From assembly GCF_036226445.1 (NCBI RefSeq), contig NZ_CP108474.1, positions 3,348,001 through 3,412,000 of the forward strand: DNA of 64,000 nt, given 5' to 3'. Shown here piece after piece: positions 975 through 20,964 of the stretch. Made by a program: the position numbers and the translations under genes. The stretch is from Streptomyces sp. NBC_01255. GTDB lineage: Bacteria; Actinomycetota; Actinomycetes; Streptomycetales; Streptomycetaceae. The notes under the pieces are model-generated. The model searched no databases. It was not told the origin of the DNA and saw nothing but the letters and a program-made list of their open reading frames with translations. Positions within the stretch are counted from its first letter, which is position 1. Every line of letters starts with the position of its first letter.

Positions 975-2129
975 TCAGCCCTCCGTACGGGAAGCTTCGC
1001 TGGTCGCGGCGGTCTGCTGGAACAGCCATTCGGACTTGAGCTCGGCATATCCGGGCTTGATCACGTCGTTGATCATGGCCAGGCGTTCGTCGAAAGGAAT
1101 GAACGCTGATTTCATCGCATTGACGGTGAACCACTGCATGTCGTCGAGCGTGTATCCGAATGCGTCGATCAGCAGCTCGAATTCCCGGCTCATGCTCGTG
1201 CCGCTCATCAGCCGGTTGTCGGTGTTGACCGTGGCGCGGAAGTGCAGCTTGCGGAGCAGGCCGATGGGGTGTGCGGCGTACGAGTCGGCGGCTCCGGTCT
1301 GGAGGTTGGAGGTGGGGCACATCTCCAGGGGGATCCGCTTGTCGCGGACATAAGCGGCGAGCCGGCCGAGGCGGACCGAGCCGTCCTCCGCGACCTCGAT
1401 GTCGTCGATGATCCGGACGCCGTGCCCGAGCCGGTCGGCGCCGCACCACTGGAGCGCCTGCCAGATGGAGGGCAGCCCGAAGGCCTCGCCCGCGTGGATC
1501 GTGAAGTGGTTGTTCTCCCGCTTGAGGTACTCGAAGGCGTCGAGGTGGCGGGTGGGCGGGTAGCCGGCCTCGGCGCCCGCGATGTCGAAGCCGACGACGC
1601 CGGTGTCGCGGTAGCGGTTGGCGAGTTCGGCGATCTCCAGGGCGCGGGCGGCGTGCCGCATGGCGGTGAGCAGGGCGCCGACCCGGATGCGGTGGCCGTT
1701 GGCCCTGGCCTGCCGCTCACCCTCCCGGAAGCCCTCGTTGACGGCCTCCACGACCTCTTCGAGGGTGAGACCGGCCTCCAGGTGCTGTTCGGGGGCGTAG
1801 CGCACCTCCGCGTACACGACCCCGTCCTCGGCGAGGTCGACCGCGCACTCGGCGGCGACCCGGACCAGGGCGTCACGGGTCTGCATGACGGCGCAGGTGT
1901 GCGCGAAGGTCTCCAGGTACCGCTCCAGGGAGCCGGAGTCGGCGGCCTCGCGGAACCAGATGCCGAGCTTGTCGGGCTCGGTCTCGGGGAGCTGTTCGTA
2001 GCCCTGCTCGCGGGCGAGTTCGATGACCGTGCCGGGGCGCAGGCCGCCGTCGAGGTGGTCGTGGAGCAGCACCTTCGGGGCACGGCGGATCTGGTCCGCG
2101 GTGGGGACGTTGGGGGTCTGGCTCGTCAT
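975..2129 (-). CDS. add: Adenosine deaminase
   Basis: A 384-residue zinc hydrolase that deaminates adenosine and deoxyadenosine to inosine and deoxyinosine in the cytoplasm. The family motifs are visible: [12 protein letters not shown] (metal-binding HxH), [18 protein letters not shown], and [10 protein letters not shown] with NTDNR. The length is normal. The ATG at 2129 sits 6 nt after TAGAGT (2136-2141 on the minus strand), suggesting a leaderless mRNA. The palindrome CTACGCGCGTAG at 2146-2157 falls between -35 and -10, so the gene should share control with deoA, cdd and the nucleoside ABC transporter further along. It supplies the purine branch of nucleoside salvage. Confidence 0.95.
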
Positions 2130-2145: not shown

Positions 2146-2157
2146 CTACGCGCGTAG
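2146..2157. promoter_or_regulatory. Nucleoside regulon operator upstream of add
   Basis: The perfect 12-bp palindrome CTACGCGCGTAG is centred 5' of the -10 hexamer TAGAGT (minus strand) of add. Matching copies precede deoA (10313-10324), the ABC transporter operon (14893-14904) and, degenerate, the BMP lipoprotein gene (16102-16113). The regulator is not encoded in this window. Confidence 0.75.
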
Positions 2158-2234
2158 AGCGCGCCTCGTGGCGCCGTATCCTCACCCGGATTTCTCGTGT
2201 GCGGGGCGACGGGGCCCCAACCTAGGCTGCCTCC

Positions 2235-3008
2235 ATGACTTCCCTGGCGATCGACTCCGAACTCCCGCGCGTCCACGGCTTCCTGTCCGCCTTCCGCCGC
2301 CGCCAGGCGGCCCGTACGGTCGACTTCCCCGGCGGTTTCGCGGTCTTCGACGAGGCGTACGCGCTGTCCCGGGGGAACAACCACCTGCTGGTCGAAGGGC
2401 CGGTCGATCCCGAGGCGCTGCCGGGGCTCGCGGACGAGCTCCAGGGCTCCCTGCCGTACCGCCTCGTGTACGTCCTCGACGAGGAGGTCGCCGCGGCCTG
2501 CCGGGAGCCGATGGAGCGGGCCGGGTTCCGGCACTCGACCTCTCTGCTCATGTGCCACAGCGGCCCCGTGCCCGTCCACGGCGGGGCGCGGGAGGTGGAC
2601 CTGGACGTGCTGCGGGAGCCCGCCCTCGCCTCCTGGAGCCGCTTCGCGCCGGACGCCTCGCCGGAGCAGGTCCGCGACCTGGTGGAGCGGCGGGCGGCCC
2701 GGCGGCGGGGCGCCGAGGTCGTGCGGTTCCTCGCCTCGTACTCCTCCGACGGCGAGGTGGCGGGATGGGTCGACCTCTACATGGACCCGGCGGCCGGGAT
2801 CGCGCAGATCGAGGACCTGGTCACGGCCGAGGCCCACCTCGGGCAGGGCCACGCCGGGGCCGTCCTGGACACGGCGCTCCGCATGGCCGCGGACGCGGGC
2901 TGCACCACCCGCTTCCTGTCCGCGCGCCCCACGGACTGGCCGCACCGCTGGTACGGCCGGAAGGGCTTCGAGGCCATCGGAAGCGCGACCCGCTTCGAAC
3001 GGGCTTAG
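2235..3008 (+). CDS. GNAT family N-acetyltransferase
   Basis: A 257-residue protein whose C-terminal third carries the acetyl-CoA-binding motif of the GNAT fold (VTAEAHLGQGHAGAVLDTA) and the closing element WYGRKGFEAIG. The N-terminal half is less conserved and may hold a second, degenerate GNAT-like lobe. The substrate is unknown. The ATG at 2235 follows TAGGCT (2223-2228) by 6 nt with no ribosome-binding site, so a leaderless transcript is likely. It diverges from add and shares the 105-nt spacer with it. Confidence 0.8.
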   Translation: MTSLAIDSELPRVHGFLSAFRRRQAARTVDFPGGFAVFDEAYALSRGNNHLLVEGPVDPEALPGLADELQGSLPYRLVYVLDEEVAAACREPMERAGFRHSTSLLMCHSGPVPVHGGAREVDLDVLREPALASWSRFAPDASPEQVRDLVERRAARRRGAEVVRFLASYSSDGEVAGWVDLYMDPAAGIAQIEDLVTAEAHLGQGHAGAVLDTALRMAADAGCTTRFLSARPTDWPHRWYGRKGFEAIGSATRFERA

Positions 3009-3096
3009 GGGCAGCGCCCGTTCGGTCCACCGACGATACGTAACGGTGACCGCGTGTACGGGTGGCGTACACCTCGGCTTCTGAGACTGTTCCACC

Positions 3097-3873
3097 ATGG
3101 CGCACTACGCACTCGTGGGGCCGTCCGAGGCCCGGAGACCCCGGCTCGGCCGTCCCGTTGGAGGTTCCCGGTCGGCGGCGGTGGGCGGCGTGGTGCTGCT
3201 CCTGCCCGACGGTGAGCCGATGTCGGGACGGCGCGCTTCGGCATGGGCGCACCTGGGGGTCCTGCCGCTCGGGCGGGCGCTCGTCAAGGACGGGCGGGCG
3301 GAGGGGCTCGTCGGGCACGTGGTGCGGTATCGGGGCCGCGGGTGGAACGGCACGGACGCGGAGCTCGCGGCGGACGCCTCGTGGGCGGTCGCGGAGGCGG
3401 TACGCCGGTACGGCGACGTCCCGGTCTGTCTCGTCGGGCACGGGATGGGGGCGCGGGCGGCGCTGCGGGCCGCCGGGCACGACGCGGTCGGCGCGGTCGT
3501 GGCGCTGGCACCGTGGCTGCCGGAGGACGACGTGGCGGCGGAACCGGAGCCGGTGCGGCAGCTGGTGGGGCGCCGCGTGCTGATCGTGCACGGCACGAAC
3601 GACGCCCGTACGGACCCCGAGCTGTCGTTCCGTTTCGCGGCGCGGGCGAAGAAGGCCAACCGCGACACCTGCCGCTTCGAGGTTCACTCGGACGGGCACG
3701 CGCTGCGCCAGTACGCGGCCGAGGTCCAGGCGCTCGCCGCGGACTTCGCCCTCGGCGCGCTCTTCGCCCGGCCGGTGGCCCGGCCCGTGACGGACGCGCT
3801 GGCCGCTCCCCCGCCGCTGGGTCTGCGGATGCCGCTCGCGGCGGGCTTCGGGAGCTCGTACCCGCGGCCTTAG
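3097..3873 (+). CDS. Alpha/beta-hydrolase fold protein, nucleophile elbow degenerate
   Basis: A 258-residue protein. VLLLPDGEP near the start, CLVGHGMGARAA in the middle, VLIVHGTNDARTDP and SDGHALR near the end match the strand, elbow, acid-loop and histidine elements of dienelactone-hydrolase-like proteins. The elbow reads G-H-G-M-G, so the usual central Ser or Cys nucleophile is Gly. The family fold therefore seems present but classic hydrolase chemistry is doubtful. His (SDGH) and Asp (TND) positions are retained. It overlaps the LysR gene by 4 nt tail to tail. Function unknown. Confidence 0.7.
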   Translation: MAHYALVGPSEARRPRLGRPVGGSRSAAVGGVVLLLPDGEPMSGRRASAWAHLGVLPLGRALVKDGRAEGLVGHVVRYRGRGWNGTDAELAADASWAVAEAVRRYGDVPVCLVGHGMGARAALRAAGHDAVGAVVALAPWLPEDDVAAEPEPVRQLVGRRVLIVHGTNDARTDPELSFRFAARAKKANRDTCRFEVHSDGHALRQYAAEVQALAADFALGALFARPVARPVTDALAAPPPLGLRMPLAAGFGSSYPRP

Positions 3874-4763
3874 GGGAGCAGGTTTCCGCGCCTGCTCAGG
3901 AGGAACTTCTTGAAGGCGGCGACCGGGGGCGTGTCCGGGTGGCCGTCGAGCCAGGCGACGCCGATCTCGCGGGCCGCGCGCGGCGCGGTGACGGTGAGTT
4001 CGACGACGCCGGGGCGCGGGACCGCGGGCGGCGGCAGCAGGGCGACGCCGAGGCCTGCGGCGACCAGGCCGCGGAGGGTCTCGGCCTCCTCGCCCTCGAA
4101 GGCGACGCGGGGCTTGAAGCCGGCCTCGGCGCACAGGTCGTCGGTGATGCGGCGGAGCCCGTATCCCGGTTCCAGGGTCACGAAGGTCTCGTCGGCGGCC
4201 TCGGCGAGGCGGACGCGGCGGCGGCCCGCGAGGCGGTGGTCGTCCGGGACGACGAGCCGCAGCCGCTGCTCGTCGAGGCGCCGGGCCACCAGGTCGGGGG
4301 CGTCCGGCACCGGTGAGGTGAGGCAGAGGTCGAGGTCGCCGGCCCTGAGCCGCTCGATCATGGCCTCGCCGTAGTTCTGGACGAGGGTGAAGCGGACGCG
4401 CGGGTGGTCGACGCGGAAGGCGCGGATGAGGGCGGGGACGGTCTCGGAGCCCATGGTGTGGAGGAAGCCGAAGGCGACGCGGCCCGCGGTGGGGTCGGCG
4501 TCGGCCCGTACGGTGTCGGCGGCCCGCTCGACCTCGGCGAGCGCCTTCTCGGCGGCGGTGAGGAAGCGGCGGCCGGCCGGGGTGAGGGAGACGGTGCGGC
4601 CGCGGCGGGCGAAGAGGGCGACGCCTAGGTCCTGTTCGAGCCGGACCATCGCCCGGGAGAGCGTGGACTGCGGTACGCCCATCTCGGCCGCGGCCCGGGT
4701 CACGTGCTCGTGCCGGGCGACGGCGGCGAAGTACGCGAGCCGCGGGGCGAGCAGCAGTCCCAT
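3870..4763 (-). CDS. LysR family transcriptional regulator
   Basis: A 297-residue LysR-type regulator with an N-terminal winged helix-turn-helix (LAYFAAVARHEHVTRAAAEM, then GVPQSTLSRAMVRLEQDLG) and a C-terminal effector-binding domain. ATG 4763 was chosen because GAAGAAG lies just upstream; in-frame ATGs at 4820 and 4856 lack a site. It is divergent from the MFS gene at 4883, the classic arrangement for a LysR protein controlling an efflux pump, so it probably regulates that gene and itself. The inducer is unknown. Confidence 0.9.
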   Translation of the reverse strand: MGLLLAPRLAYFAAVARHEHVTRAAAEMGVPQSTLSRAMVRLEQDLGVALFARRGRTVSLTPAGRRFLTAAEKALAEVERAADTVRADADPTAGRVAFGFLHTMGSETVPALIRAFRVDHPRVRFTLVQNYGEAMIERLRAGDLDLCLTSPVPDAPDLVARRLDEQRLRLVVPDDHRLAGRRRVRLAEAADETFVTLEPGYGLRRITDDLCAEAGFKPRVAFEGEEAETLRGLVAAGLGVALLPPPAVPRPGVVELTVTAPRAAREIGVAWLDGHPDTPPVAAFKKFLLSRRGNLLP

Positions 4764-4846
4764 GTCTTCTTCGTTACTGTTCGGTGACAGCCGATGCTGT
4801 GACCTGTACTCATGCACCATGGGAACGATTACAGCAGTTCCGTGCA

Positions 4847-4876
4847 TTGGACGCATGAAACGGATCGTCCTACGTT
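4847..4876 (+). promoter_or_regulatory. Promoter of the MFS gene
   Basis: TTGGAC (4847-4852) and TACGTT (4871-4876) are separated by 18 bp, and the ATG at 4883 follows 6 nt later, so the transcript is probably leaderless. This spacer also holds the LysR promoter on the other strand and presumably the LysR box. Confidence 0.55.
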
Positions 4877-4882
4877 CGTGAC

Positions 4883-6151
4883 ATGCCTCCCGCCAGTACC
4901 AAGGCGGCCGCCACCCACGCGGCCGCCGACACCCGCCTTTCCCCCGGAGCCCCCGGCTACCGCCGCACGAGCCTCGCGCTCTTCGCCGCCGGACTGGCCG
5001 CCTTCGCCCTCCTCTACTCCACGCAGGCCCTCCTCCCGGCCATCTCGGCCGAGTTCGGCGCCACCGCGTCCGCGGCCTCCTGGACGGTCTCCGCCGCGAC
5101 CGGCGCCCTCGCCCTGTGTGTCCTGCCGCTCAGCGCCCTCTCGGAGCGCTTCGGGCGGCGCGCGATGATGACCGCCTCCCTCTCGGTCGCCGTCGCCGTC
5201 TCGCTCCTCGTGCCGTTCGCCCCCAGCCTGGAGTCCCTGATCGCCCTCCGCGCCCTCCAGGGCGCCGCGCTCGCCGGGCTCCCGGCCTCCGCGATGGCGT
5301 ACCTCGCCGAGGAGGTCCGCCCCAAGGCGCTGATCGCGGCGATCGGCCTGTTCGTCGCGGGCAACTCGATCGGCGGCATGAGCGGCCGGATCGTGACCGG
5401 CTGGGTCGCGCAGATGTGGGGCTGGCGCGCGGGTCTGGCCGCCGTCGGACTGACCTCGCTGCTGTGCGTGATCGCCTTCCGGGCGCTGCTGCCGAAGGCG
5501 CGGCACTTCACGCCGGGCACGCTGAACCCGAGGGCGCTGGCGAGCGCCGTGCGGACGCATCTGTCCGACCCGCTGCTCGTCCGGCTGTACGTGATCGGCG
5601 CGCTGTTCATGACGGTCTTCGGCGCGGTGTACACCGTGATCGGCTACCGCCTGGTCGAGGCGCCGTTCTCGCTCCCGCAGGGCGTGATCGGCTCGATCTT
5701 CCTGGTCTACCTGGTCGGTACGGTCGCCTCGGCCGCCGCCGGGAAGCTCGTCGGACGGCTCGGCCGGCGCGGGGCGCTCTACCTGGCGGTCTCCACGACC
5801 GCCGCGGGCCTGCTGCTGTCGCTCGCCGACTCGCTCGCCGCGGTCCTGGCGGGCCTGGTCCTCATCACGGCCGGTTTCTTCGCGGGGCACGCGGTCGCGT
5901 CCTCCTCGGTGAGCCGTACGGCGAAGACGGGCCGGGCGCAGGCCTCGGCGCTCTACCAGTCCGCGTACTACCTGGGCAGCAGCGCGGGCGGCACGCTCGG
6001 CGCGATCGCCTTCCACGCCGGCGGCTGGGCGGGCACGGTCCTGATCGGCCTCGTCGCGGTCCTCGGCGTCGTCTCCGTGACCCTGTACGGCAGCCACAGC
6101 GCCCGGGTCGCGGCGCGGCGGCCGCGACTCGCTGCGGCTGCCTGCAACTGA
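4883..6151 (+). CDS. MFS transporter (YnfM-like efflux family)
   Basis: A 422-residue major facilitator with about 12 hydrophobic segments. The first-half signature LSERFGRRAMMTASL and the following RALQGAALAGLPASAMAYLAEE resemble the YnfM/CmlA-like drug-proton antiporters. A hydrophilic N-terminal tail of about 25 residues precedes the first helix. It is divergently paired with a LysR regulator, suggesting an inducible exporter; the substrate cannot be read from sequence. Confidence 0.88.
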   Translation: MPPASTKAAATHAAADTRLSPGAPGYRRTSLALFAAGLAAFALLYSTQALLPAISAEFGATASAASWTVSAATGALALCVLPLSALSERFGRRAMMTASLSVAVAVSLLVPFAPSLESLIALRALQGAALAGLPASAMAYLAEEVRPKALIAAIGLFVAGNSIGGMSGRIVTGWVAQMWGWRAGLAAVGLTSLLCVIAFRALLPKARHFTPGTLNPRALASAVRTHLSDPLLVRLYVIGALFMTVFGAVYTVIGYRLVEAPFSLPQGVIGSIFLVYLVGTVASAAAGKLVGRLGRRGALYLAVSTTAAGLLLSLADSLAAVLAGLVLITAGFFAGHAVASSSVSRTAKTGRAQASALYQSAYYLGSSAGGTLGAIAFHAGGWAGTVLIGLVAVLGVVSVTLYGSHSARVAARRPRLAAAACN

Positions 6152-6204
6152 CCGGCTCCCTCTGACGTCCTCGATGTCAGGGACTCTAGGGGGAGTTGAC
6201 GATC

Positions 6205-6912
6205 ATGAAGCGAACAGCGAGTCGTATAGGCAAGAGAGCGGGCATCGCGACCGGTCTCACGGCACTGGTCGTGCCGATGACGATCGCGCTCGGTACGGCC
6301 CCGGCGCAGGCGGCGTCCTGCAACGTGACGACGGGGCCGTACCAGAAGCAGGTGGAGAAGTTCCTGGGCCGGACGGTCGACGGTCGTCAGTCGCTCGCCG
6401 ACTGCAAGGCGATCCAGTCGTTCCAGGCGAAGCACGGCATCACCCCGACCGCGGGGTACGCGGGGACGATCACCTGGCGCACGATGAACACGATGCTCCA
6501 GCAGAAAGCAGCCGGGACCAACCCGAACAAGGACCGCAAGTGTCCGACCAACCGGGGCCGGATCGCCTGTGTCGACCTGACGCGGCAGCTGACCTGGATC
6601 CAGGACGGCTCGCGCCTCAAGTACGGGCCGGTGCCGGTGCGTACGGGCAAGGACGGCACGGAGACGCGTACGGGCTCCAAGAAGATCTACTGGCGGAACA
6701 TCAACCACTGGTCGACGATCTACCACGTCTCCATGCCGTACTCGCAGTTCTTCGACGGCGGCCAGGCCTTCCACTCGACGACCAAGTCCATGTGGAACCC
6801 GCCGGGTTCGGGCGGCTGCGTGAACATGCGGTCGGCCGACGCCAAGGCGTACTGGAACCTGCTCAGGAACGGCGACGACGTCTTCGTCTACGGGCGCAAG
6901 CCGGGAACCTGA
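6205..6912 (+). CDS. Secreted L,D-transpeptidase with peptidoglycan-binding domain
   Basis: A 235-residue exported enzyme. A signal peptide (residues 1-31, ending PAQAAS) is followed by a peptidoglycan-binding-like repeat (VEKFLGRTVDGRQSLADCKA) and a YkuD catalytic domain. The catalytic block reads HSTTKSMWNPPGSGGCVNMR, giving the His and the S/G-G-C-x-N cysteine nucleophile. Such enzymes form 3-3 cross-links in peptidoglycan. ATG 6205 is preferred over TTG 6196 because GGGGGAG is 9 nt upstream. A related lipoprotein form lies at 29582. Extra cysteines may form disulfides outside the cell. Confidence 0.9.
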   Translation: MKRTASRIGKRAGIATGLTALVVPMTIALGTAPAQAASCNVTTGPYQKQVEKFLGRTVDGRQSLADCKAIQSFQAKHGITPTAGYAGTITWRTMNTMLQQKAAGTNPNKDRKCPTNRGRIACVDLTRQLTWIQDGSRLKYGPVPVRTGKDGTETRTGSKKIYWRNINHWSTIYHVSMPYSQFFDGGQAFHSTTKSMWNPPGSGGCVNMRSADAKAYWNLLRNGDDVFVYGRKPGT

Positions 6913-6945
6913 CCGGCACTGTCAGTCGGCTGAGGTAGCTTCCCT

Positions 6946-6974
6946 CTCACCGGCACCGAACGGGTGCCGGTGAG
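6946..6974. terminator. Hairpin between L,D-transpeptidase and sigma factor genes
   Basis: A perfect 12-bp stem (6946-6957 with 6963-6974) and a 5-nt loop. It could terminate the L,D-transpeptidase gene or form a leader structure ahead of the sigma gene. It contains the in-frame GTG at 6964, which argues against that codon as the start. Confidence 0.5.
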
Positions 6975-6987
6975 GGGTGAGTGGGGT

Positions 6988-7968
6988 ATGGACCCGATGA
7001 GTGACGCCGCGACCGTGACGACCGAGGACCTCGACAAGTACCGCAGGGAGCTGACCGGTTACTGCTACCGGATGCTCGGATCCTCCTTCGAGGCGGAGGA
7101 CGCGGTACAGGACACGATGGTGCGGGCCTGGAAGGCCATCGACAGCTTCGAGGGCCGCTCCTCGCTGCGGTCCTGGCTGTACCGGATCGCGACCAACGTC
7201 TGCCTGGACGCGCTGAACGCGGGCAAGAAGCGGGCGCGGCCGATGGATCTGACCGCGCCGACGCCGGTCGCCCAGGCGCAGCTCGTCAAGCAGCCGGAGA
7301 TCACCTGGCTGGAGCCGGTGCCGGACGGGCGGGTCCTGCCGTCGGTCGCCGACCCGGCGGAGACGGCCGTGCACCGGGAGACGGTGCGGCTCGCCTTCGT
7401 CGCCGCCCTCCAGCACCTGCCGCCCAAGCAGCGGGCCGTGCTGATCCTGCGCGAGGTGCTCGCCTGGAAGGCGAGCGAGGTCGCGGAGCTCCTCGGGCTC
7501 TCCGTCGCCTCGGTGAACAGCGCCCTCCAGCGGGCCCGGGCGACCCTGGCCGAGCAGGCGCCGGCCGTCTCCGACCCGGCGAACCCGCTGGACGAGGAGC
7601 AGAAGGCGCTCCTGGAGCGGTACGTCGCCGCCTTCGAGGGCTACGACATGAAGGCGCTGACCGCACTCCTCCACGAGGACGCGACCATGTCGATGCCGCC
7701 GTACGACCTGTGGCTCCAGGGGCACGACGACATCGTCGGCTGGATGCTGGGCGTCGGCGAGGTCTGCTCCGGCTCGAAGCTGGTGCCGACCGTGGCGAAC
7801 GGCTCCCCGGCGTTCGCGCAGTACCACCCCGACCCGGCGGGCGGCTTCGCCCCGTGGGCGCTGATCGTCCTGGAGCTCCGCGAGGGCAAGGTCGCCGGGA
7901 TGGACTTCTTCCTCGACACCGAGCGCTGGTTCCCGCTCTTCGACCTGCCGGCGCGGCTAGACGCCTAA
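6988..7968 (+). CDS. ECF sigma factor with C-terminal SnoaL-like domain
   Basis: A 326-residue sigma-70 family protein. Region 2 (YCYRMLGSSFEAEDAVQDTM, then RAWLYRIATNVCLDAL-like sequence) and region 4 (LPPKQRAVLILREVLAWKA, then EVAELLGLSVASVNSALQRA) are clear. Residues from about 205 onward form an added NTF2/SnoaL-like domain (YVAAFEGYDMKALTALLHED), as in the long ECF groups (ECF41/ECF56-like, TIGR02960-like) in which this extension modulates activity in place of an anti-sigma factor. ATG 6988 has GGGGTGAGTGGGG upstream. No zinc anti-sigma gene is adjacent; the convergent STAS gene overlaps its tail by 12 nt. Confidence 0.88.
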   Translation: MDPMSDAATVTTEDLDKYRRELTGYCYRMLGSSFEAEDAVQDTMVRAWKAIDSFEGRSSLRSWLYRIATNVCLDALNAGKKRARPMDLTAPTPVAQAQLVKQPEITWLEPVPDGRVLPSVADPAETAVHRETVRLAFVAALQHLPPKQRAVLILREVLAWKASEVAELLGLSVASVNSALQRARATLAEQAPAVSDPANPLDEEQKALLERYVAAFEGYDMKALTALLHEDATMSMPPYDLWLQGHDDIVGWMLGVGEVCSGSKLVPTVANGSPAFAQYHPDPAGGFAPWALIVLELREGKVAGMDFFLDTERWFPLFDLPARLDA

Positions 7969-8232
7969 GGTCCCGTCGAGGCCGGTCAGCAGGAGCAGGG
8001 CCCGTAGCTCGGGGCCCGCTCCGTGGAAGCGGATGCGGTGGCCCCGGCGGCCGGCCGCGAGCTTCAGACGGGCGAGGGCGTCGACGGCCGCGAGGTCCGC
8101 GGGTGCGAGGGCGCCGACCTCGCAGACGACGTCACCGGGCGGGGCCGCGCCGAGTTCGGCGCAGAGGAGGGCCACCTCGTCCCCGGTGGGGCGGGCGGGC
8201 AGGGTCACGACGAGCGGCTGACTGATGTCCAC
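7957..8232 (-). CDS. STAS domain protein
   Basis: A 91-residue single-domain STAS/MlaB-like protein. The core CEVGALAPADLAAVDALARL, then AAGRRGHRIRFHGAG, matches anti-sigma-factor antagonist folds, but the usual phosphorylatable Ser/Thr of SpoIIAA (D-[ST]-x-G) is replaced by ADLAAVD. It is therefore probably not controlled by kinase phosphorylation. The GTG start is at 8232. The last 12 nt overlap the end of the sigma factor gene on the other strand; a functional link between the two is possible but unproven. Confidence 0.7.
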   Translation of the reverse strand: MDISQPLVVTLPARPTGDEVALLCAELGAAPPGDVVCEVGALAPADLAAVDALARLKLAAGRRGHRIRFHGAGPELRALLLLTGLDGTLGV

Positions 8233-8303
8233 ATGGCTTGTGACCGGTCCGGGACCCGGAACTCATCGGCGGGGGTCCCGTGCCTACCTCTACGCTGTCG
8301 ATC

Positions 8304-8960
8304 ATGACTCACGAACCTGTCGAACTGGTGATCTTCGACTGTGACGGTGTTCTGGTGGACAGCGAGCGGATCTACTGCCGTGTGGACCGGGAGGTGTTCG
8401 CCTCCCTCGGGGCGGAGTTCACCGAGGCGGAGGTGATCGAGCACTTCGTCGGTTCCTCCCACGAGATGCTCACGGCGATCGTGGAGGAGCGCAGGGGCCG
8501 CCCGCTGGAGCCCGGCTGGCAGACGCCCTTCAAGCAGCGGTACGACGACGTGCTGGACGCCGAACTGACGGCCGTGGAGGGCATCACGCACGTCCTGGAC
8601 ACCCTGCCCCTGCCGTACTGCCTCGCCTCCAACAGCAGCCACGCCGGCATCCGGAAGAACCTGGGCAGGACCGGGCTGCTCGACCGCTTCGAGGGCCGGA
8701 TGTTCAGCGCCCGCGACGTCGCCCGCGGCAAGCCCGCCCCGGACCTCTTCCTGCACGCGGCGGCCACGATGGGCGTCCCCCCGGAGCGCTGCGCGGTCGT
8801 CGAGGACAGCCCGTACGGCGTCCAGGCGGCCCGCGCGGCCGGCATGCGCGCCTTCGGCTACTGCGGCGGCCTGACGCGGGCGGACCGCCTGATGGGCCCG
8901 CGGACGGTGGTCTTCGACGACATGCGGGAGCTGCCAAAGCTGCTCGGGGAGCCGGTGTAG
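8304..8960 (+). CDS. HAD superfamily phosphatase (GpH/YcjU type)
   Basis: A 218-residue hydrolase with the HAD motifs in order: VIFDCDGVLVDSE (nucleophile Asp), SNSSHAGIRKN (motif II), GKPAPDLFLHAA (motif III Lys) and VVEDSPYGVQAARAAG (motif IV). It is typical of beta-phosphoglucomutase or sugar-phosphate phosphatase relatives; substrate unknown. TACGCT (8291-8296) lies 7 nt before the ATG at 8304 and no ribosome-binding site is present, so translation is probably leaderless. Confidence 0.88.
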   Translation: MTHEPVELVIFDCDGVLVDSERIYCRVDREVFASLGAEFTEAEVIEHFVGSSHEMLTAIVEERRGRPLEPGWQTPFKQRYDDVLDAELTAVEGITHVLDTLPLPYCLASNSSHAGIRKNLGRTGLLDRFEGRMFSARDVARGKPAPDLFLHAAATMGVPPERCAVVEDSPYGVQAARAAGMRAFGYCGGLTRADRLMGPRTVVFDDMRELPKLLGEPV

Positions 8961-8982
8961 GCGTACGCCTACACCGGCTCCC
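8947..8982. terminator. Bidirectional terminator, 36-bp perfect palindrome
   Basis: Positions 8947-8982 form an uninterrupted palindrome centred at 8964/8965. It includes the stop codon of the HAD gene and lies between that gene and convergent deoA. Confidence 0.75.
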
Positions 8983-9018
8983 TTCACGGGCCGGGCGTCA
9001 GGCTCCGGGCGTCAGGCG

Positions 9019-10296
9019 TCAGGAGATGCGGTCCAGGACGATCGGGTTCGCCGTGAAGTCGGTGCCCGTCGGGGCGATGTCCCAGGAGTCGTTCAGGGAC
9101 TTCAGGGCGTAGTCGAACTTCTCCGGGGTGTCGGTGTGGAGGGTCAGCAGGGGCTGGCCCGCCGTCACCGTGTCGCCCGGCTTCGCGTGCAGCTCGACGC
9201 CGGCGCCCGCCTGCACCGGGTCCTCCTTGCGGGCGCGGCCCGCGCCGAGGCGCCAGGCGGCGATGCCGATGTCGTACGCGTCGAGGCGGGTCAGGACGCC
9301 GGTCGACGGGGCCGTGACGACGTGCTGCTCGCGGGCGACGGGGAGGGTGGCGTCAGGGTCGCCGCCCTGGGCCGCGATCATCCGGCGCCAGACGTCCATC
9401 GCCGAGCCGTCGGCGAGGGCCTTCGCCGGGTCGGCGTCCTTGATGCCGGCCGCGTCGAGCATCTCGCGGGCGAGCGCGATCGTCAGCTCGACGACGTCCG
9501 ACGGGCCGCCGCCCGCGAGGACCTCGACGGACTCGCGGACCTCCAGGGCGTTGCCCGCGGTCAGGCCGAGCGGGGTCGACATGTCGGTGAGCAGCGCGAC
9601 CGTCTTCACGCCGCTGTCGGTGCCGAGCTGGACCATGGTGGAGGCCAGCTCGCGGGCGTCCTCGATGGTCTTCATGAAGGCGCCGGTGCCGACCTTGACG
9701 TCCAGGACGAGCGAGCCGGTGCCCTCGGCGATCTTCTTGGACATGATGGAGCTGGCGATCAGGGGGATCGCTTCGACCGTGCCCGTGACGTCGCGGAGCG
9801 CGTAGAGCTTCTTGTCGGCGGGGGCCAGGCCGTCGCCGGCCGCGCAGATGACGGCGCCGGTGGTGTCGAGGACGTGCAGCATCTCCTCGTTGGAGAGCAG
9901 CGCGCGCCAGCCCGGGATCGACTCCAGCTTGTCGAGCGTGCCGCCGGTGTGGCCGAGGCCGCGGCCGGAGAGCTGCGGGACGGCCGCGCCGCAGGCGGCG
10001 ACGAGCGGGGCGAGCGGGAGGGTGATCTTGTCGCCGACGCCGCCGGTGGAGTGCTTGTCGGAGGTCGGGCGGGAGAGCGCGTCGAAGTTCATGCGCTCGC
10101 CGCTGGCGATCATCGCGGCGGTCCAGCGGGCGATCTCCGCGCGGTTCATGCCGTTCAGCAGGATCGCCATGGCCAGGGCGGACATCTGCTCGTCGGCGAC
10201 GACGCCGCGGGTGTACGCGTCGATGACCCAGTCGATCTGCTCCGGGCTCAGCTCGCCCTTGTCCCGCTTCGTGCGGATGACGGAGATGACGTCCAT
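9019..10296 (-). CDS. deoA: Thymidine phosphorylase
   Basis: A 425-residue enzyme that splits thymidine or deoxyuridine with phosphate to the base and 2-deoxyribose 1-phosphate. The family signature SGRGLGHTGGTLDKLESIPG is intact, as are the KHSTGGVGDK phosphate-binding and AIPLIASSIMSKKIAEG segments. Length matches PyNP/DeoA. It follows cdd on the same strand after a hairpin, and its own operator (10313-10324) suggests a separate promoter within the nucleoside regulon. With cdd and add it completes nucleoside catabolism fed by the ABC importer. Confidence 0.95.
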   Translation of the reverse strand: MDVISVIRTKRDKGELSPEQIDWVIDAYTRGVVADEQMSALAMAILLNGMNRAEIARWTAAMIASGERMNFDALSRPTSDKHSTGGVGDKITLPLAPLVAACGAAVPQLSGRGLGHTGGTLDKLESIPGWRALLSNEEMLHVLDTTGAVICAAGDGLAPADKKLYALRDVTGTVEAIPLIASSIMSKKIAEGTGSLVLDVKVGTGAFMKTIEDARELASTMVQLGTDSGVKTVALLTDMSTPLGLTAGNALEVRESVEVLAGGGPSDVVELTIALAREMLDAAGIKDADPAKALADGSAMDVWRRMIAAQGGDPDATLPVAREQHVVTAPSTGVLTRLDAYDIGIAAWRLGAGRARKEDPVQAGAGVELHAKPGDTVTAGQPLLTLHTDTPEKFDYALKSLNDSWDIAPTGTDFTANPIVLDRIS

Positions 10297-10312
10297 GAGG
10301 TGGTGCCTCTTT

Positions 10313-10324
10313 CTACGCGCATAG
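10313..10324. promoter_or_regulatory. Nucleoside regulon operator upstream of deoA
   Basis: CTACGCGCATAG matches the add operator with one substitution (G to A at position 9) and lies 17 nt before the deoA start codon. Confidence 0.7.
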
Positions 10325-10337
10325 AGGGGGAAAGGGA

Positions 10338-10371
10338 GAGCGACCCTTCCATCGTGCCGGAAGGGCCGCTC
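10338..10371. terminator. Hairpin downstream of cdd
   Basis: A 13-bp stem with one A-C mismatch (10338-10350 with 10359-10371) lies between cdd and deoA on the minus strand. It probably ends or attenuates the transporter-cdd transcript before the deoA promoter. Confidence 0.55.
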
Positions 10372-10378
10372 CGAGGTG

Positions 10379-10783
10379 TTACTTGCGAAGGTGGTCCGGG
10401 CCGAACGCCTGCGGCAGCATCTCGGCCAGGGTCAGGAACCCGGCGGGCGTCTCCAGGACGAGGTCGGGGCCGCCGAACTCGAACAGGAGCTGCCGGCACC
10501 GGCCGCACGGGACGAGGGACTCGCCCCGGCCGTCCACGCACACGAAGTGCGTCAGCCGGCCGCCGCCGGTCGCCTGGAGCTGGGAGACGAGACCGCACTC
10601 GGCGCACAGGCCCAGGCCGAACGAGGCGTTCTCCACGTTGCAGCCGGAGACCGTCCGTCCGTCGTCCACGCGGGCCGCCGCGCCGACCGGGTAGCCCGAG
10701 TACGGGGCGTACGCGCGGGCCATGGCCTCGCGGGCCGTGACCCGCAAGGCCTCCCAGTCCGACGCCGGAAGCGGCGTCGTCAC
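10379..10783 (-). CDS. cdd: Cytidine deaminase
   Basis: A 134-residue zinc enzyme converting cytidine and deoxycytidine to uridine and deoxyuridine. The substrate motif GCNVENASFGLGLCAECG holds the first zinc Cys and catalytic Glu, and PCGRCRQLL supplies the other two zinc cysteines. The GTG start (10783) overlaps the TGA of the upstream permease as GTGA, so translation is coupled to the transporter. Its product uridine or deoxyuridine could be a substrate for the phosphorylase encoded next. Confidence 0.93.
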   Translation of the reverse strand: MTTPLPASDWEALRVTAREAMARAYAPYSGYPVGAAARVDDGRTVSGCNVENASFGLGLCAECGLVSQLQATGGGRLTHFVCVDGRGESLVPCGRCRQLLFEFGGPDLVLETPAGFLTLAEMLPQAFGPDHLRK

Positions 10784-12069
10784 TTGCCCTCGCCCTTGCG
10801 GTAGCGCATGCCGTCCGCCTTGGGCATCCGCAGGCGCTGCGCGGAGAGCGACAGGACCAGCAGGGTCACCACGTACGGGGTCGCGCTGACGAACTCGACC
10901 GGGACCGTCTCCGTACCGAGGTACCAGATGAGGACGCCGACGCCGATGACGATGCTGATCGAGGACGTGATCCAGCGCTTCTTGTACGCCTTCCAGGCCG
11001 CCAGGACGACGAGGATCGCGAAGAGCAGCAGGAGCAGCGCGTGCACGGACTCGCCGCCGCTGCGGAGCTGGAGCGCGTCGGCGAAGCCGAACAGGCCCGC
11101 GCCCATCGCGAGGCCGCCCGGCCGCCAGTTGCCGAAGATCATCGCCGCGAGGCCGATGTAGCCGCGGCCGCCGGTCTGGCCCTCGTTGTAGATGTGCGAG
11201 GTGACCAGGGAGAGGAAGGCGCCGCCGAGACCGGCCAGACCGCCCGAGACGACGACGGCGATGTACTTGTACTTGTACACGTTGACGCCGAGGGACTCGG
11301 CCGCGATCGGGTTCTCGCCGCAGGAGCGCAGCCGCAGACCGAACGAGGTCTTCCACAGCACGAAGAACGTGCCGATCACCAGCAGCACCGCGAGGATCGT
11401 CACCAGCGAGACGTTGGTGACCAGGCCGCCGAGGATGCCGGCGATGTCCGAGATCAGGAACCAGTGGTGTTTCTCGATGTCGGCGAGCCAGTCGGACAGG
11501 CCCGGCACGGTGATCGAGGTGATGTCATCGGCCGGCGGGGACTGCTTGGGGCTGCCGCCCTTGGCCGCCGCCTCGCCGGAGTTGAACCACAGCTTGGCGA
11601 AGTAGGTGGTGACACCGACGGCCAGGATGTTGATCGCGATGCCGGAGATGATGTGGTCGACGCCGAAGGTGACGGTCGCGACCGCGTGCAGCAGGCCGCC
11701 GAACATGCCGCCCAGGATGCCGGCGAGGATGCCGATCCAGGGGTCGGTCTGCCAGCCGGCCCAGGCACCGAAGAAGGTGCCGAGGATCATCATGCCTTCG
11801 AGGCCGATGTTGACCACGCCCGCGCGCTCGGCCCACAGACCGCCGAGACCGGCGAGGCCGATCGGCACGGCGAGCGAGAGCGCGGCGCTGATCTGGCCGG
11901 CCGAGGTGAGGTCCTGCGCCCCGGTGATGACCCGCACGGCCGACAGGGCCACGAGCCCGCCCGCGACGATCAGCAGGATCCAGGGGAGGGTGAGGCGGGT
12001 GCGGCCGCCCTTGCCGCCGGCCGCCTTGGGGGCCGCGGGCGGCGGGGTGGAAGTCGCCGTGGCGCTCAC
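10780..12069 (-). CDS. Nucleoside ABC transporter permease (second)
   Basis: A 429-residue inner-membrane permease of the branched-chain/BMP-type ABC family, with about 10 hydrophobic segments. The typical GLWAERAGVVNIGLEGMMIL motif and RLRSCGENPIAAESLGVNV cytoplasmic loop (coupling helix) are present. It is the partner of the permease at 12066-13178. GTG 12069 overlaps the preceding stop by 4 nt (GTGA). An Ala/Pro-rich tail precedes the first helix. Homologous systems import guanosine or other nucleosides. Confidence 0.92.
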   Translation of the reverse strand: MSATATSTPPPAAPKAAGGKGGRTRLTLPWILLIVAGGLVALSAVRVITGAQDLTSAGQISAALSLAVPIGLAGLGGLWAERAGVVNIGLEGMMILGTFFGAWAGWQTDPWIGILAGILGGMFGGLLHAVATVTFGVDHIISGIAINILAVGVTTYFAKLWFNSGEAAAKGGSPKQSPPADDITSITVPGLSDWLADIEKHHWFLISDIAGILGGLVTNVSLVTILAVLLVIGTFFVLWKTSFGLRLRSCGENPIAAESLGVNVYKYKYIAVVVSGGLAGLGGAFLSLVTSHIYNEGQTGGRGYIGLAAMIFGNWRPGGLAMGAGLFGFADALQLRSGGESVHALLLLLFAILVVLAAWKAYKKRWITSSISIVIGVGVLIWYLGTETVPVEFVSATPYVVTLLVLSLSAQRLRMPKADGMRYRKGEGK

Positions 12070-13178
12070 GCCGACACCTCCGTCGTGTCGTTGGAACGGG
12101 CCTGGGCCGCGAGCTTCTCGCCGACCTGTCGCTGCTGGCGCTTGAGGCCGTAGCGGCGGACGACCTCGTAGGCGATGACGACGCAGAGGACGATGACGCC
12201 CTGCATGACGCCGACGATCTCGCGGTCGTAGTTCTCGAACTCCAGCTGCTGGCCGCCGCGCTCCAGGAACGCCCAGAGGATCGCGGCGAGCGCGATGCCG
12301 ATCGGGTGGTTCCGGCCGAGCAGGGCGATGGCGATACCGGTGAAGCCGATGCCGACGGGGAAGTCGCCGCCGAATTCGTACGAGTCGTTGAGCAGCGTCG
12401 GCATACCGATCAGACCGGCCATGCCGCCGGAGATCAGCATGGACGTGACGACCATCTTCTTGACGTTGACACCGCTGGCCGACGCGGCCGTCTCGGACTG
12501 GCCGACGGTGCGCAGGTCGAAGCCGAAGCGGGTGCGGGAGAGCGTGAACCAGTACCCGATGCCCGCGATGACCGCGACGACGACGAAGCCGTAGATCGGG
12601 GTCGGCGTGGTCGGGAACTCGAAGAAGTGCGAGGACTCCGGCAGCGGGGTCGTCGCCACCTTCGTGCCGGCCGCGTCCAGGTGACCGAGGCGGCCGGGCT
12701 GGAGCAGGTAGCCGATGATCGCGGTCGCGATGAAGTTGAGCATGATCGTCGAGACGACCTCGCTGACACCGCGGGTGGTCTTGAGGAGACCCGCGACGCC
12801 CGCCCACATGGCGCCGACGATCATCGCGGTGACGATGATCAGCGGGATCTGGACGATGCCCGGCAGGGTCAGCGCGCCGCCGACGGCGGCGGCGAAGAAG
12901 GCGGCGAGACGGTACTGGCCGTCCACACCGATGTTGAACAGGTTCATGCGGAAGCCGATGGCCACCGCGATGCCCGCCAGGTAGTACGTCGTCGCCTTGT
13001 TGATGATGTAGACCTGGCTGTCGGACTTGACGCCGTAGTCGAACATGATCCCGAAGGCGCTGAACGGCTCCTTGCCGGTGGCCGCGAGCACCAGGGCGGT
13101 GATCAGGAAGGCGGCGACGATCGCGAGCAGCGGCGCCGCGATCGCCAGGAGCACCCGCTCCTTGTCGAACTTCTTCAT
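12066..13178 (-). CDS. Nucleoside ABC transporter permease (first)
   Basis: A 370-residue integral membrane protein with about 9 helices. It shows GIAVAIGFRMNLFNIGVDGQ and RTVGQSETAASASGVNVKKM, the latter being the loop that docks on the ATPase. It matches the YufP/NupP-type permease paired with YufQ/NupQ. The ATG at 13178 overlaps the ATPase stop as ATGA. The cytoplasmic C-terminus is basic. Confidence 0.92.
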   Translation of the reverse strand: MKKFDKERVLLAIAAPLLAIVAAFLITALVLAATGKEPFSAFGIMFDYGVKSDSQVYIINKATTYYLAGIAVAIGFRMNLFNIGVDGQYRLAAFFAAAVGGALTLPGIVQIPLIIVTAMIVGAMWAGVAGLLKTTRGVSEVVSTIMLNFIATAIIGYLLQPGRLGHLDAAGTKVATTPLPESSHFFEFPTTPTPIYGFVVVAVIAGIGYWFTLSRTRFGFDLRTVGQSETAASASGVNVKKMVVTSMLISGGMAGLIGMPTLLNDSYEFGGDFPVGIGFTGIAIALLGRNHPIGIALAAILWAFLERGGQQLEFENYDREIVGVMQGVIVLCVVIAYEVVRRYGLKRQQRQVGEKLAAQARSNDTTEVSA

Positions 13179-14923
13179 CGGGCCTCGTCCTCCGGGCCGT
13201 CGGTGCCCTCAGTGCCCGCAGGGCTCTCAGGGCTCTCAGGGCTCTCAGGGCTCTCATCGTGCTCAAGGTGACCGGCGGCGGCGCCGGTCATGGCCGAGCC
13301 CAGCTCCTCCGGAGTGATCGTCGCCGGGTCGGCGTCCGCCACGAGCCGCCCGCGGTACATCACGCGCAGGGTGTCGGAGAGGCCGATCAGCTCGTCGAGG
13401 TCGGCGGAGATCAGCAGGACCGCCAGGCCCTCACGGCGCGCCTCGCGGATCTGGTCCCAGATCTGCGCCTGCGCGCCGACGTCCACGCCCCGGGTGGGGT
13501 GCGCGGCGATCAGCAGTTTGGGGTCGTGGCTCATCTCGCGGCCGACGATCAGCTTCTGCTGGTTTCCGCCGGAGAGGGAGGCCGCGGTGACGTCGATGCC
13601 GGGGGTACGGACGTCGTACTCGCGGACGATCCGCTCGGTGTCCTTGCGGGCGGCCTTGAGGTCGAGGATGGCGCCCTTGGAGTTGGGCTTCTCGGTGACG
13701 TGCCCCAGGATGCGGTTCTCCCAGAGGGGGGCCTCCAGGAGCAGACCGTGCCGGTGGCGGTCCTCGGGGATGCAGCCGATGCCGTCCTCGCGACGCTTGC
13801 GCGTGGGGGCCTCGGAGATGTCCTGGCCGTCCAGGGTCACGACGCCGCCGTCGGCGTTGCGCATGCCCATGATCGTGTCGACGAGTTCCGACTGGCCGTT
13901 GCCCTCGACACCGGCGATGCCGAGGACCTCGCCCTTGTGGATGGTGAAGGTGATCCCGCCGAGGACCGCGCGGACCACGCCGTCGGGGTCGACCGCGCTC
14001 AGCGCCAGGTCCTGGACCGTCAGCATCGGCACGTCCGTGACCGTCGACTCGCGGGTCTCCGGCGAGGGCAGCTCGGCGCCGACCATCAGCTCCGCGAGCT
14101 GCTTGGTGGTGGTGTGCTTCGGGTCGGCGGTGCCGACCGTGGTGCCGCGCCGGATGACGGTGATCTCGTCGGCGACCGACAGGACCTCGCCCAGCTTGTG
14201 CGAGATGAAGATGACGGTCAGGCCCTCGGCCTTGAGCTCGCGCAGGTTGTCGAAGAGCGCGTCGACCTCCTGCGGGACGAGCACGGCGGTCGGCTCGTCG
14301 AGGATCAGGGTGCGGGCGCCGCGGTAGAGGACCTTGAGGATCTCGACGCGCTGACGGTCGGCCACACCGAGGTCCTCGACGAGGACGTCGGGGCGGACGC
14401 CGAGGCCGTACGCGTCGGAGATCTCCTTGATCTTGGCGCGGGCCTTGTCCCCGATGCCGTAGAGCTTCTCGGAACCGAGGACGACGTTCTCGAGGACGGT
14501 GAGGTTGTCCGCGAGCATGAAGTGCTGGTGGACCATGCCGACGCCGCGGACGATCGCATCGCCGGGGCTGTTGAACGTCACCTGCTCGCCGTCGACCGTG
14601 ATGGTGCCCTCGTCCGGCTTCTGCATGCCGTAGAGGATCTTCATCAGCGTCGACTTGCCCGCGCCGTTCTCGCCCACGAGGGCGTGGACGGTGCCGCGGC
14701 GCACGGTGATGTCGATGTCGTGATTGGCCACGACGCCGGGGAAACGCTTGGTGATGCCGCGGAGTTCTACGGCGTTCGGACTGCTGGTGCTGGAGGCTTT
14801 GATGACGCACTCTCCAAGGCAGGGAGCGTGAGGAGGACGAGGCGGGGACGCAGGCGCTGTCGGTGGCGAAAAATACCCTGTACGCCATGACGCTACGCGC
14901 GTAGCGTCAGGAAAATCGTTCAA
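13175..14923 (-). CDS. Nucleoside ABC transporter ATPase (double NBD)
   Basis: A fused two-NBD ATPase as in NupO/RbsA-type importers. The first Walker A is GENGAGKSTLMK and first signature is the degenerate VADRQRVEI, with LILDEPTAVL as Walker B. The second half has GVEGNGQSE in place of Walker A, LSGGNQQK as signature and HPTRGVD after the B strand. The given start is TTG 14923, the only standard start codon, but it lies upstream of the operator at 14888-14909. The conserved body begins near 14803, where GGAGAG sits 6 nt before an in-frame ATC; this may be the true start, giving 542 residues. The C-terminus is an acidic Glu-Ser-Pro repeat. Confidence 0.9.
   Translation of the reverse strand: MNDFPDATRVASWRTGYFSPPTAPASPPRPPHAPCLGECVIKASSTSSPNAVELRGITKRFPGVVANHDIDITVRRGTVHALVGENGAGKSTLMKILYGMQKPDEGTITVDGEQVTFNSPGDAIVRGVGMVHQHFMLADNLTVLENVVLGSEKLYGIGDKARAKIKEISDAYGLGVRPDVLVEDLGVADRQRVEILKVLYRGARTLILDEPTAVLVPQEVDALFDNLRELKAEGLTVIFISHKLGEVLSVADEITVIRRGTTVGTADPKHTTTKQLAELMVGAELPSPETRESTVTDVPMLTVQDLALSAVDPDGVVRAVLGGITFTIHKGEVLGIAGVEGNGQSELVDTIMGMRNADGGVVTLDGQDISEAPTRKRREDGIGCIPEDRHRHGLLLEAPLWENRILGHVTEKPNSKGAILDLKAARKDTERIVREYDVRTPGIDVTAASLSGGNQQKLIVGREMSHDPKLLIAAHPTRGVDVGAQAQIWDQIREARREGLAVLLISADLDELIGLSDTLRVMYRGRLVADADPATITPEELGSAMTGAAAGHLEHDESPESPESPESPAGTEGTDGPEDEAR
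13221..13256. repeat. Four 9-bp tandem repeats in the ATPase 3' end
   Basis: Four exact copies of GGGCTCTCA encode an ESP tripeptide repeat near the C-terminus of the ABC ATPase. Copy number is likely to vary between strains. Confidence 0.8.
14888..14909. promoter_or_regulatory. Nucleoside regulon operator of the ABC transporter operon
   Basis: A perfect 22-bp palindrome with the core CTACGCGCGTAG at 14893-14904, flanked by TGACG and CGTCA. It is the strongest of the four copies in the window. It lies about 85 nt before the conserved start of the ATPase. Confidence 0.78.
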
Positions 14924-14944
14924 CTGCCCGCGGACATACGTGTG

Positions 14945-14990
14945 AAGGGGGCCCGGAGTGTCGGCCGAAGCCGCTCTCCGGGCCCCCTTT
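14945..14990. terminator. Terminator of the BMP lipoprotein gene
   Basis: A 14-bp GC-rich stem (14945-14958 with 14976-14989) lies 3' of the BMP gene on the minus strand, followed on that strand by C- and A-rich sequence. It separates the abundant binding-protein transcript from the transporter operon. Confidence 0.7.
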
Positions 14991-15000
14991 CCGACGTGTG

Positions 15001-16041
15001 TCAGAGGGTCGTGGCGACCTTGATCTGACCGTCGACGATCTTCTTCTTGGCCGCGTCGATCTGGGCCTGGATGTCCGTGAGGTGGCCACCCGTGGTGGTG
15101 AGGGAGACACCGTCCTCGGCCAGCGAGTAGGTGTGCGTGCCGGTCATCGGCTTGCCGTCCTGGACGGACTTGACGAGCTCGAAGACGCCGGTGTCGACGT
15201 TCTTGACGACCGAGGTCATGATCGAGCCGGCGTACTTCGACAGGGCCGGGTCCTTCGCCTGGTCCGAGTCGACGCCGATCGCCCAGGTGCCGGGCTTCGC
15301 GGCGACGGCCTCGATGGCGCCGGCGCCGGAGCCGCCCGCGGCGGCGTAGATGACGTCGATGCCCTTGTCGAGCATGCCCTTGGCGGCGGCCTTGCCCTTG
15401 TCAGGCGCACCGAAGCCGGACATGTCCGTACCGGTGGACAGGTACTGGATCTGGACCGTGGCGTTCGGCTTGGTCTCCTTGACACCCTGCTGGAAACCGG
15501 CGGCGAACTTCTTGATCAGCGGGATGTCGACACCGCCGATGAAGCCGATCTTGCCGTCCTTGGACTTCAGGGCCGCGGCGACACCGGCGAGGTAGGAGCC
15601 CTGCTCCTCGGTGAAGACGATCGAGTCGACGTTCTTCGCCTCGGAGACCGAGTCGACCAGGCCGAAGGTGGTCTTCGGGTACTTGGCCGCGACCTTGTCG
15701 ATCGCGTCCTTGTAGGCGAAGCCGACACCGATGACCGGGTTGTAGCCGCCCTCGGCGAGGGAGGCGAGGCGCTGCTCGCGGTCGGCCGGGGTCTCACCGT
15801 TCTTCGCGGTGAGCTCCTTGGTCTCGACACCGAGGTCGGCCTTGGCCTTGTCGAGACCGCGCGCGGCGGAGTCGTTGAAGGAGTTGTCGCCACGACCACC
15901 CACGTCGTAGGCCATGCCGACCTTGATGTCGCCCGAGTCGGAGCCCGAGTCCCCGGTGGAGGACTCCCCGCAGGCGGTGGCAGTGAGAGCGAGAGCCGCA
16001 GTGACAGCACACGCGGCGGTGATCTTGGATACCCGGCGCAC
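15001..16041 (-). CDS. BMP family nucleoside-binding lipoprotein
   Basis: A 346-residue solute-binding protein. The lipobox LTATAC puts the lipid-anchored cysteine at residue 24, followed by a Ser/Asp/Gly-rich linker. The fold core shows VGMAYDVGGRGDNSFNDSAA, the standard opening of BMP/Med nucleoside receptors, and VIYAAAGGSGAGAIEA in the second lobe. It captures purine or pyrimidine nucleosides for the ABC transporter encoded next. The GTG start at 16041 has AAGGGACC-type sequence upstream. It has a separate promoter and a degenerate operator copy. Confidence 0.93.
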   Translation of the reverse strand: MRRVSKITAACAVTAALALTATACGESSTGDSGSDSGDIKVGMAYDVGGRGDNSFNDSAARGLDKAKADLGVETKELTAKNGETPADREQRLASLAEGGYNPVIGVGFAYKDAIDKVAAKYPKTTFGLVDSVSEAKNVDSIVFTEEQGSYLAGVAAALKSKDGKIGFIGGVDIPLIKKFAAGFQQGVKETKPNATVQIQYLSTGTDMSGFGAPDKGKAAAKGMLDKGIDVIYAAAGGSGAGAIEAVAAKPGTWAIGVDSDQAKDPALSKYAGSIMTSVVKNVDTGVFELVKSVQDGKPMTGTHTYSLAEDGVSLTTTGGHLTDIQAQIDAAKKKIVDGQIKVATTL

Positions 16042-16101
16042 GAGGAGGTCCCTTCAAGACTGACCGAAAGCGCCTCTTCCGGCGCTGGTTTCGGGCGATC
16101 G

Positions 16102-16113
16102 TAACGCGCGTAG
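16102..16113. promoter_or_regulatory. Degenerate nucleoside operator upstream of BMP gene
   Basis: TAACGCGCGTAG matches the operator in 10 of 12 positions. On the minus strand a possible TTTAAC/TACGAT promoter with a 16-bp spacer overlaps it. Confidence 0.55.
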
Positions 16114-20953: not shown

Positions 20954-20964
20954 GGTGCTGTTCC

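Follow-up and report, generated by a model that had tools for sequence, protein, structure and literature searches.

The question raised by this locus is why one 12-letter palindrome, CTACGCGCGTAG, stands before several nucleoside genes of a Streptomyces chromosome, and what might read it. The window analyzed here is a 64,000-nucleotide stretch (C1:3348001-3412000) of the 8.57-Mb genome of Streptomyces sp. NBC_01255, and it contains two exact copies of the palindrome, one copy with one change and one with two. A first-pass annotation had placed these four sites before the adenosine deaminase gene add, the thymidine phosphorylase gene deoA, an ATP-binding cassette (ABC) transporter operon, and a BMP lipoprotein gene; the positions and numbers of changes that it gave are all correct. 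We find that the palindrome is real, that it is kept in Streptomyces and close relatives, and that the same operator stands at several nucleoside units. Very probably, it is the operator of one trans-acting, Streptomycetaceae-specific repressor that governs a nucleoside catabolism regulon and is released by a metabolite.

Taken alone, the window shows no excess over chance of matches with two or fewer mismatches (5 found versus 4.88 expected), the fifth match, at 26260-26271 with two changes, lying inside a MerR-like gene; the evidence for the palindrome comes from the exact count over the whole genome. There, CTACGCGCGTAG occurs four times, versus the 0.36 to 0.48 copies that trinucleotide and dinucleotide models of the window predict, and the reversed pattern 0 times. 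All four exact copies fall within 43.5 kb and precede punA (purine nucleoside phosphorylase), deoC (deoxyribose-phosphate aldolase, followed by two genes reading as aldehyde dehydrogenases), add, and the nucleoside ABC operon; the punA and deoC sites are located upstream of the window, 28.6 and 10.6 kb before it, respectively. A genome scan had been named beforehand as the test that could refute the claim of a nucleoside regulon. With 4/4 exact copies at nucleoside genes and a link that holds across the family, the exact copies favor that claim. The four units first proposed do belong to the set, but exact sites at punA and deoC enlarge it, and the core comprises six units or more.

The window loci were compared with named relatives obtained from a deoA scan (the best 80 of 594 loci; mostly Streptomyces, with Kitasatospora, Actinacidiphila, Streptantibioticus, Wenjunlia, and Yinghuangia), and for each gene start the best palindrome match was scored from -150 to +12. 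An exact site precedes add in 57 of the 58 testable relatives. The ABC ATPase gene has an exact site in 46/76 and a site with one change in another 21/76, while the BMP gene carries the identical variant CTACGCGCGTTA in 65/65. A site with two or fewer changes was found before deoA in 33/80. Given this conservation, both of the weaker sites are real, the BMP variant being invariant and the deoA site confined to a subset. Control genes of the same loci yielded no match with two or fewer mismatches: lysR (0/67), MFS (0/66), ECF sigma (0/56), amidohydrolase (0/67), permease 1 (0/78), permease 2 (0/76), cdd (0/79), LD (0/20), HAD (0/6), and chaplin-like (0/6). The GNAT gene has a site in 5/6, because it shares its divergent upstream region with add. 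The 22-bp palindrome noted earlier at the ABC site is perfect in this strain, but the extension recurs in 0/48 relatives; judged by these sequences, the unit is the 12-mer and not the 22-bp form.

The motif follows the family. Exact copies are present in 60 of 61 Streptomycetaceae genomes (own included), 192 in total versus 29 for the reversed pattern, and a class-wide sample gave 2 to 6 exact copies in each of 31/31 genomes of the genus (own included). In the other families of the class, the exact motif was found in just 10 of 265 genomes. The three sites of one of these (G131) are not at nucleoside genes, and six of the other nine, inspected at one site each against 16 reference proteins, gave no match. 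Other families of the order have the motif in 3/13 genomes, once at an unrelated gene and twice inside the guaB coding sequence. For 20 hand-picked family genomes every exact site was inspected, a regulon start being taken as -30 to +300 bp, and 60 of 65 exact sites were at regulon starts: add 20 (one per genome), punA 17, deoC 9, ABC ATPase 8, secX (a secreted protein gene) 3, and add2 (a second adenosine deaminase gene) 3. The purN gene also carries the site, in 7 loci from two genera. G010, the only genome of the family that lacks an exact copy, carries CTACGCGAGTAG at the corresponding position upstream of deoC. In relatives from family f43 of this order (L344, L345, L348), the operator is lacking upstream of deoC, and a different inverted repeat, GTAGA...TCTAC, stands at the deoC start.

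The position of the site was examined relative to -10 boxes, which were judged by consensus only. At add, a TANNNT box begins 4 bp after the site in 54/57 relatives and the site center lies 22 bp before the ATG in 46/57; with the ATG so close to the site and the -10 box, the add mRNA should be leaderless. The sequence ATATGCT directly follows the site in 7/7 deoC loci read, and a TACCCT/TACGCT-like box lies ~10 to 13 bp after the site in most of 26 punA loci inspected by eye. At the BMP gene, the right end of the operator runs into a TANNNT box in 65/65, and this overlap would explain why the right half of that site departs from the palindrome. The operator overlaps or abuts the core promoter at add, the BMP gene, deoC, and most punA loci; this was not seen at the ABC site. 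The varying spacing from the site to the -10 box and the start codon appears to fit an occluding repressor better than an activator.

At add2, the site is inside the gene and covers codons 3 to 7 (seven loci read, namely L056, L070, L123, L168, L170, L171, and L172; and three more genomes, G255, G329, and G372). It uses codons that are rare in the reference genes of the window genome (GCT, 1.8% of Ala; GTA, 1.3% of Val), with a chance of ~4e-5 for four codons in one gene, the loci being related and not independent. The secreted SecX protein bears the operator in 7 genomes from three genera (L145:2550-4304, L148:754-2484, L150:699-2417, L033, L046, and loci of G054 and G255). Its N-domain has no Pfam family over cutoff and is accompanied by Ig and carbohydrate-binding-like parts, and the protein is called “hydrolase” in some sources. 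Homologs are numerous (5866 at E <= 1e-10 among 7992 candidates scored). The predicted structure is poor (mean pLDDT 60.2, with the first 138 residues mostly <50), and solved structures matched only the Ig and carbohydrate-binding parts.

Six of the 17 one-mismatch sites of the window genome lie at genes of nucleic acid or purine metabolism. Besides deoA and purS (of purSQL), these genes encode a nucleotidase, an enzyme of the 2',3'-cyclic-phosphodiesterase/nucleotidase type, a secreted GmrSD_C protein, and a permease of the xanthine/uracil type. A divergent mshD-like gene is closer to the nucleotidase site than the nucleotidase gene is (88 versus 246 bp), a small divergent gene is likewise closer to the permease site (37 versus 108 bp), and two of the sites extend over predicted 5' ends. 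The remaining 11 have no clear link, being found inside dnaA-, MerR-, AraC-like, and other coding sequences, before rpoB, a protease gene, a GH25-type gene, or a carbon-nitrogen hydrolase gene of uncertain role, or without a predicted target. Relatives back just deoA, purS (exact site in G060, L071), and a nucleotidase (exact site in G264, L058). A search with the left ten bases gave 24 matches versus 11 for the reversed pattern, with strands summed and each exact palindrome counted twice. Nine places were new; one is 17 bp upstream of the gene for a secreted guanyl-type RNase (PF00545), another 45 bp upstream of an ExeM/NucH-like nuclease gene (below the cutoff of that model), and the remaining seven have no clear link. 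These weaker matches suggest a wider set of nucleotidases, nucleases, a purine permease, and purSQL, and are to be taken as leads only. The features of the window are collected below.

Features of the nucleoside loci, numbered by position in the window
Feature	Position	Strand	Remarks
add, adenosine deaminase	975..2129	-	NCBIfam NF006847, 644 bits vs cutoff 412
Operator, exact CTACGCGCGTAG	2146..2157		Centered ~22 bp upstream of the add ATG; -10-like TAGAGT follows after 4 bp
GNAT-like gene	2235	+	Divergent from add; the 2146..2157 site is also in its upstream region
LysR-type regulator	3870..4763	-	PF00126/PF03466; conserved add neighbor
deoA, thymidine phosphorylase	9019..10296	-	NF004490, 644 bits vs cutoff 269
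Operator variant, one change, CTATGCGCGTAG on deoA strand	10313..10324		Between cdd and deoA
cdd-like cytidine deaminase	10379..10783	-	Name by reading; start approximate
ABC permease 2	10780..12069	-	NCBIfam matches below cutoff
ABC permease 1	12066..13178	-	PF02653
Nucleoside transporter ABC ATPase	13175..14806	-	Name by reading; start approximate
Operator, exact	14893..14904		Between BMP gene and ABC operon; inside perfect 22-bp palindrome 14888-14909
BMP/PnrA-type lipoprotein	15001..16041	-	PF02608, 210 bits
Operator variant, two changes, CTACGCGCGTTA on BMP strand	16102..16113		Right edge is the start of -10-like TACGAT

Farther along the window (18861-23297), polysialyltransferase-like, NeuB-like, and CMP-sialate-synthetase-like genes, named by reading only, stand in a row, which suggests a nonulosonic acid cluster.

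How, then, might the palindrome act? Without inducer, the putative repressor would cover the core promoters of punA, of deoC with the two aldehyde dehydrogenase genes, of add, and of the BMP-ABC-cdd-deoA operon, and in some genomes also those of the second add, the secreted hydrolase, and purN or purSQL. A metabolite derived from entering nucleosides (a nucleoside, a base, or a (deoxy)ribose phosphate) would then release it. The site, its targets, its conservation, and its position at -10-like boxes are observed directly, and from these onward the reading would call for a dimeric protein, for repression and not activation, and for an inducer of this kind, all of which we infer. Several points weigh against it. 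No protein is known to bind the palindrome. No clear TANNNT box follows the ABC site in the relatives scanned, and among the named relatives the ABC ATPase gene is without a site in 9/76 and deoA in 47/80. In the 20 picked family genomes, 5 of 65 exact sites are elsewhere than at regulon starts. Finally, the window genome has 17 one-mismatch sites where the reversed pattern gives 16; they are no commoner than chance, and wider targets in this genome are accordingly unproven. The role of the palindrome might also be broader. As a tentative suggestion, it could be a global nucleic acid scavenging switch of the Streptomycetaceae, under a regulator from a class that has so far had no connection with nucleosides. 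Such a switch would couple secreted RNase, DNase, and nucleotidases with the import of bases and nucleosides, the degradation of nucleosides, and part of de novo purine synthesis (purSQL, purN), and is perhaps tied to nucleic acid reuse from dying mycelium. A function at another level altogether, as an RNA hairpin, in chromosome organization, or in DNA modification, we regard as highly improbable: the palindrome is perfect and clustered in 43.5 kb here, but the add site, upstream of a leaderless-looking start, would fall outside the transcript, and the sites at add2, purN, and secX are either distant from the cluster or on different contigs.

The earlier statement that no regulator is encoded in the window is not borne out, for the window contains a LysR gene (Pfam) and, by reading, MerR-, TetR-, and GntR/MocR-like genes. 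The exact sites whose neighbors were read include none before a recognized transcription factor gene. A DeoR-type protein encoded ~2.4 kb from the punA site (L016:4114-5073) has DeoRC and HTH_DeoR domains and an ortholog with 84 to 100% identity in 31/31 genomes of the genus, and its gene is also near punA in genome G015. We nevertheless consider it unlikely to be the binder. No site with two or fewer mismatches was found in 30/30 of its upstream regions (260 bp), and six genomes with DeoR orthologs of 67 to 70% identity have no exact motif. Orthologs in another actinobacterial family (f15) share an identical stretch at the presumed recognition helix, yet GATC blocks (seen by eye) occupy three divergent intergenic regions there. 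In such loci the DeoR ortholog and a sugar-type ABC operon point away from each other, and the GATC blocks in the intervening stretch are conserved (L108:6440-6740, L109:6545-6910, L110:5490-5850); it is possible that these blocks are the operator of that DeoR group. The LysR protein beside add would have a counterpart in E. coli PunR, which we take to be of LysR type and whose gene stands beside a transporter gene. The lysR gene lies within 6 kb of add in 57/58 relatives and is divergent from an MFS gene, but no site with two or fewer mismatches precedes either gene (0/67 and 0/66). Moreover, LysR activation sites do not usually abut -10 boxes as the sites here do, and this protein seems very unlikely to be the binder.

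The genome encodes exactly one SorC-family (PF04198) protein, a relative of B. subtilis DeoR (L374:1327-2316). An rpe-like gene flanks its gene on one side; on the other come a gene pair for an RNase (PF00545) and barstar and then a guaB1/GMP-reductase-type gene (L374:1327-3754). The best NCBIfam match of the protein is Bacillus DeoR, but at 134.7 bits it is well below the cutoff of 420 of that equivalog model. The protein is kin of solved DeoR and SorC structures, and its 120 best listed homologs are 88 to 100% identical, all species-named ones coming from Streptomyces. No site with three or fewer mismatches is present upstream (L374), so the gene does not adjoin an operon that carries the operator. 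When the protein is aligned with 8r7y, a Thr takes the place of the effector lysine of B. subtilis DeoR, presumably K141, which we take to bind deoxyribose 5-phosphate. Its B. subtilis relative recognizes a different operator, ATTGAACAAAATTTCAAT (PMC11229326). That this protein reads the palindrome is improbable. The DeoR-type, LysR, and SorC genes were each tested as the source of the binder and none was supported, the SorC gene staying a weak candidate. Action through the site by WblC (WhiB7), which is widespread in actinobacteria whereas the motif is confined to the family, is extremely unlikely. The promoter of SCO4914 (deoC) of S. coelicolor was reported to be WblC bound and WblC repressed, but that report describes neither a distinctive feature nor a functional group for the promoters that WblC represses, and gives GAAAWY as the activation motif (PMC7157823). 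More likely, WblC is a second input at deoC. Among the 27 LacI family members of the genome, eight were viewed in 7 regions. Near-sites with two to three mismatches were seen there, one with three lying just before a LacI gene (L181:1755) and the others not looking regulatory. Of the remaining 19, just one was viewed, L179, a short LacI gene preceded by AACGCGCGTT.

We take SCO4914, SCO4917, SCO4901, and SCO4920 to be the S. coelicolor locus tags of the genes discussed here, and SCO1463 to be that of the SorC gene; in the open-licence literature, nothing relevant was found on SCO1463. SCO4914, a deoxyribose-phosphate aldolase, is lower in an argR mutant (PMC3293853), SCO4917 is a purine nucleoside phosphorylase homolog (PMC2714318), and the adenosine deaminase SCO4901, together with putative nucleases, is more abundant in S. 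coelicolor than in S. lividans, which was read there as recycling after lysis (PMC7244524). The DeoR-family SCO4920 is the center of an inferred network (PMC3224704) and appears in the regulator table of a carbon catabolite study (PMC4848846). Of eight open-licence papers that contain the letters of the palindrome or of its ten-base core, two show the full 12-mer; there the dodecamer was crystallized as A-form model DNA (PDB 5MVK), with no link to a regulator (PMC8063756, PMC8510090). No description of this operator or regulon was found in the open-licence literature on Streptomyces nucleoside regulation, although subscription work may exist. The present analysis supplies the operator in its exact form, a list of core targets for this antibiotic-producing family, and a bait for the regulator, and it makes nucleic acid reuse by these bacteria directly testable.

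E. coli and Bacillus provide the classic nucleoside regulons. Those of E. coli CytR and DeoR, in which one factor controls dispersed catabolic and transport units, resemble the arrangement proposed here but differ in their operators and, for CytR, in the partnership with CRP. The E. coli punR gene is linked with that of the purine nucleoside transporter PunC (PMC8376909); the LysR gene beside an MFS gene is similar here, but this LysR-MFS region lacks the motif. NupR of B. thuringiensis (GntR/HutC) is likewise described as a regulator of nucleoside transport, though in another organism (PMC9430930). B. subtilis DeoR (SorC family) and dra-nupC-pdp offer a repressor over deoxyribose-phosphate aldolase, nucleoside uptake, and a pyrimidine phosphorylase, with an operator that overlaps the promoter (PMC11229326). 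That operator is ATTGAACAAAATTTCAAT plus a direct repeat and serves one operon, whereas the operator described here is a 12-bp GC-rich palindrome that stands at many dispersed units.

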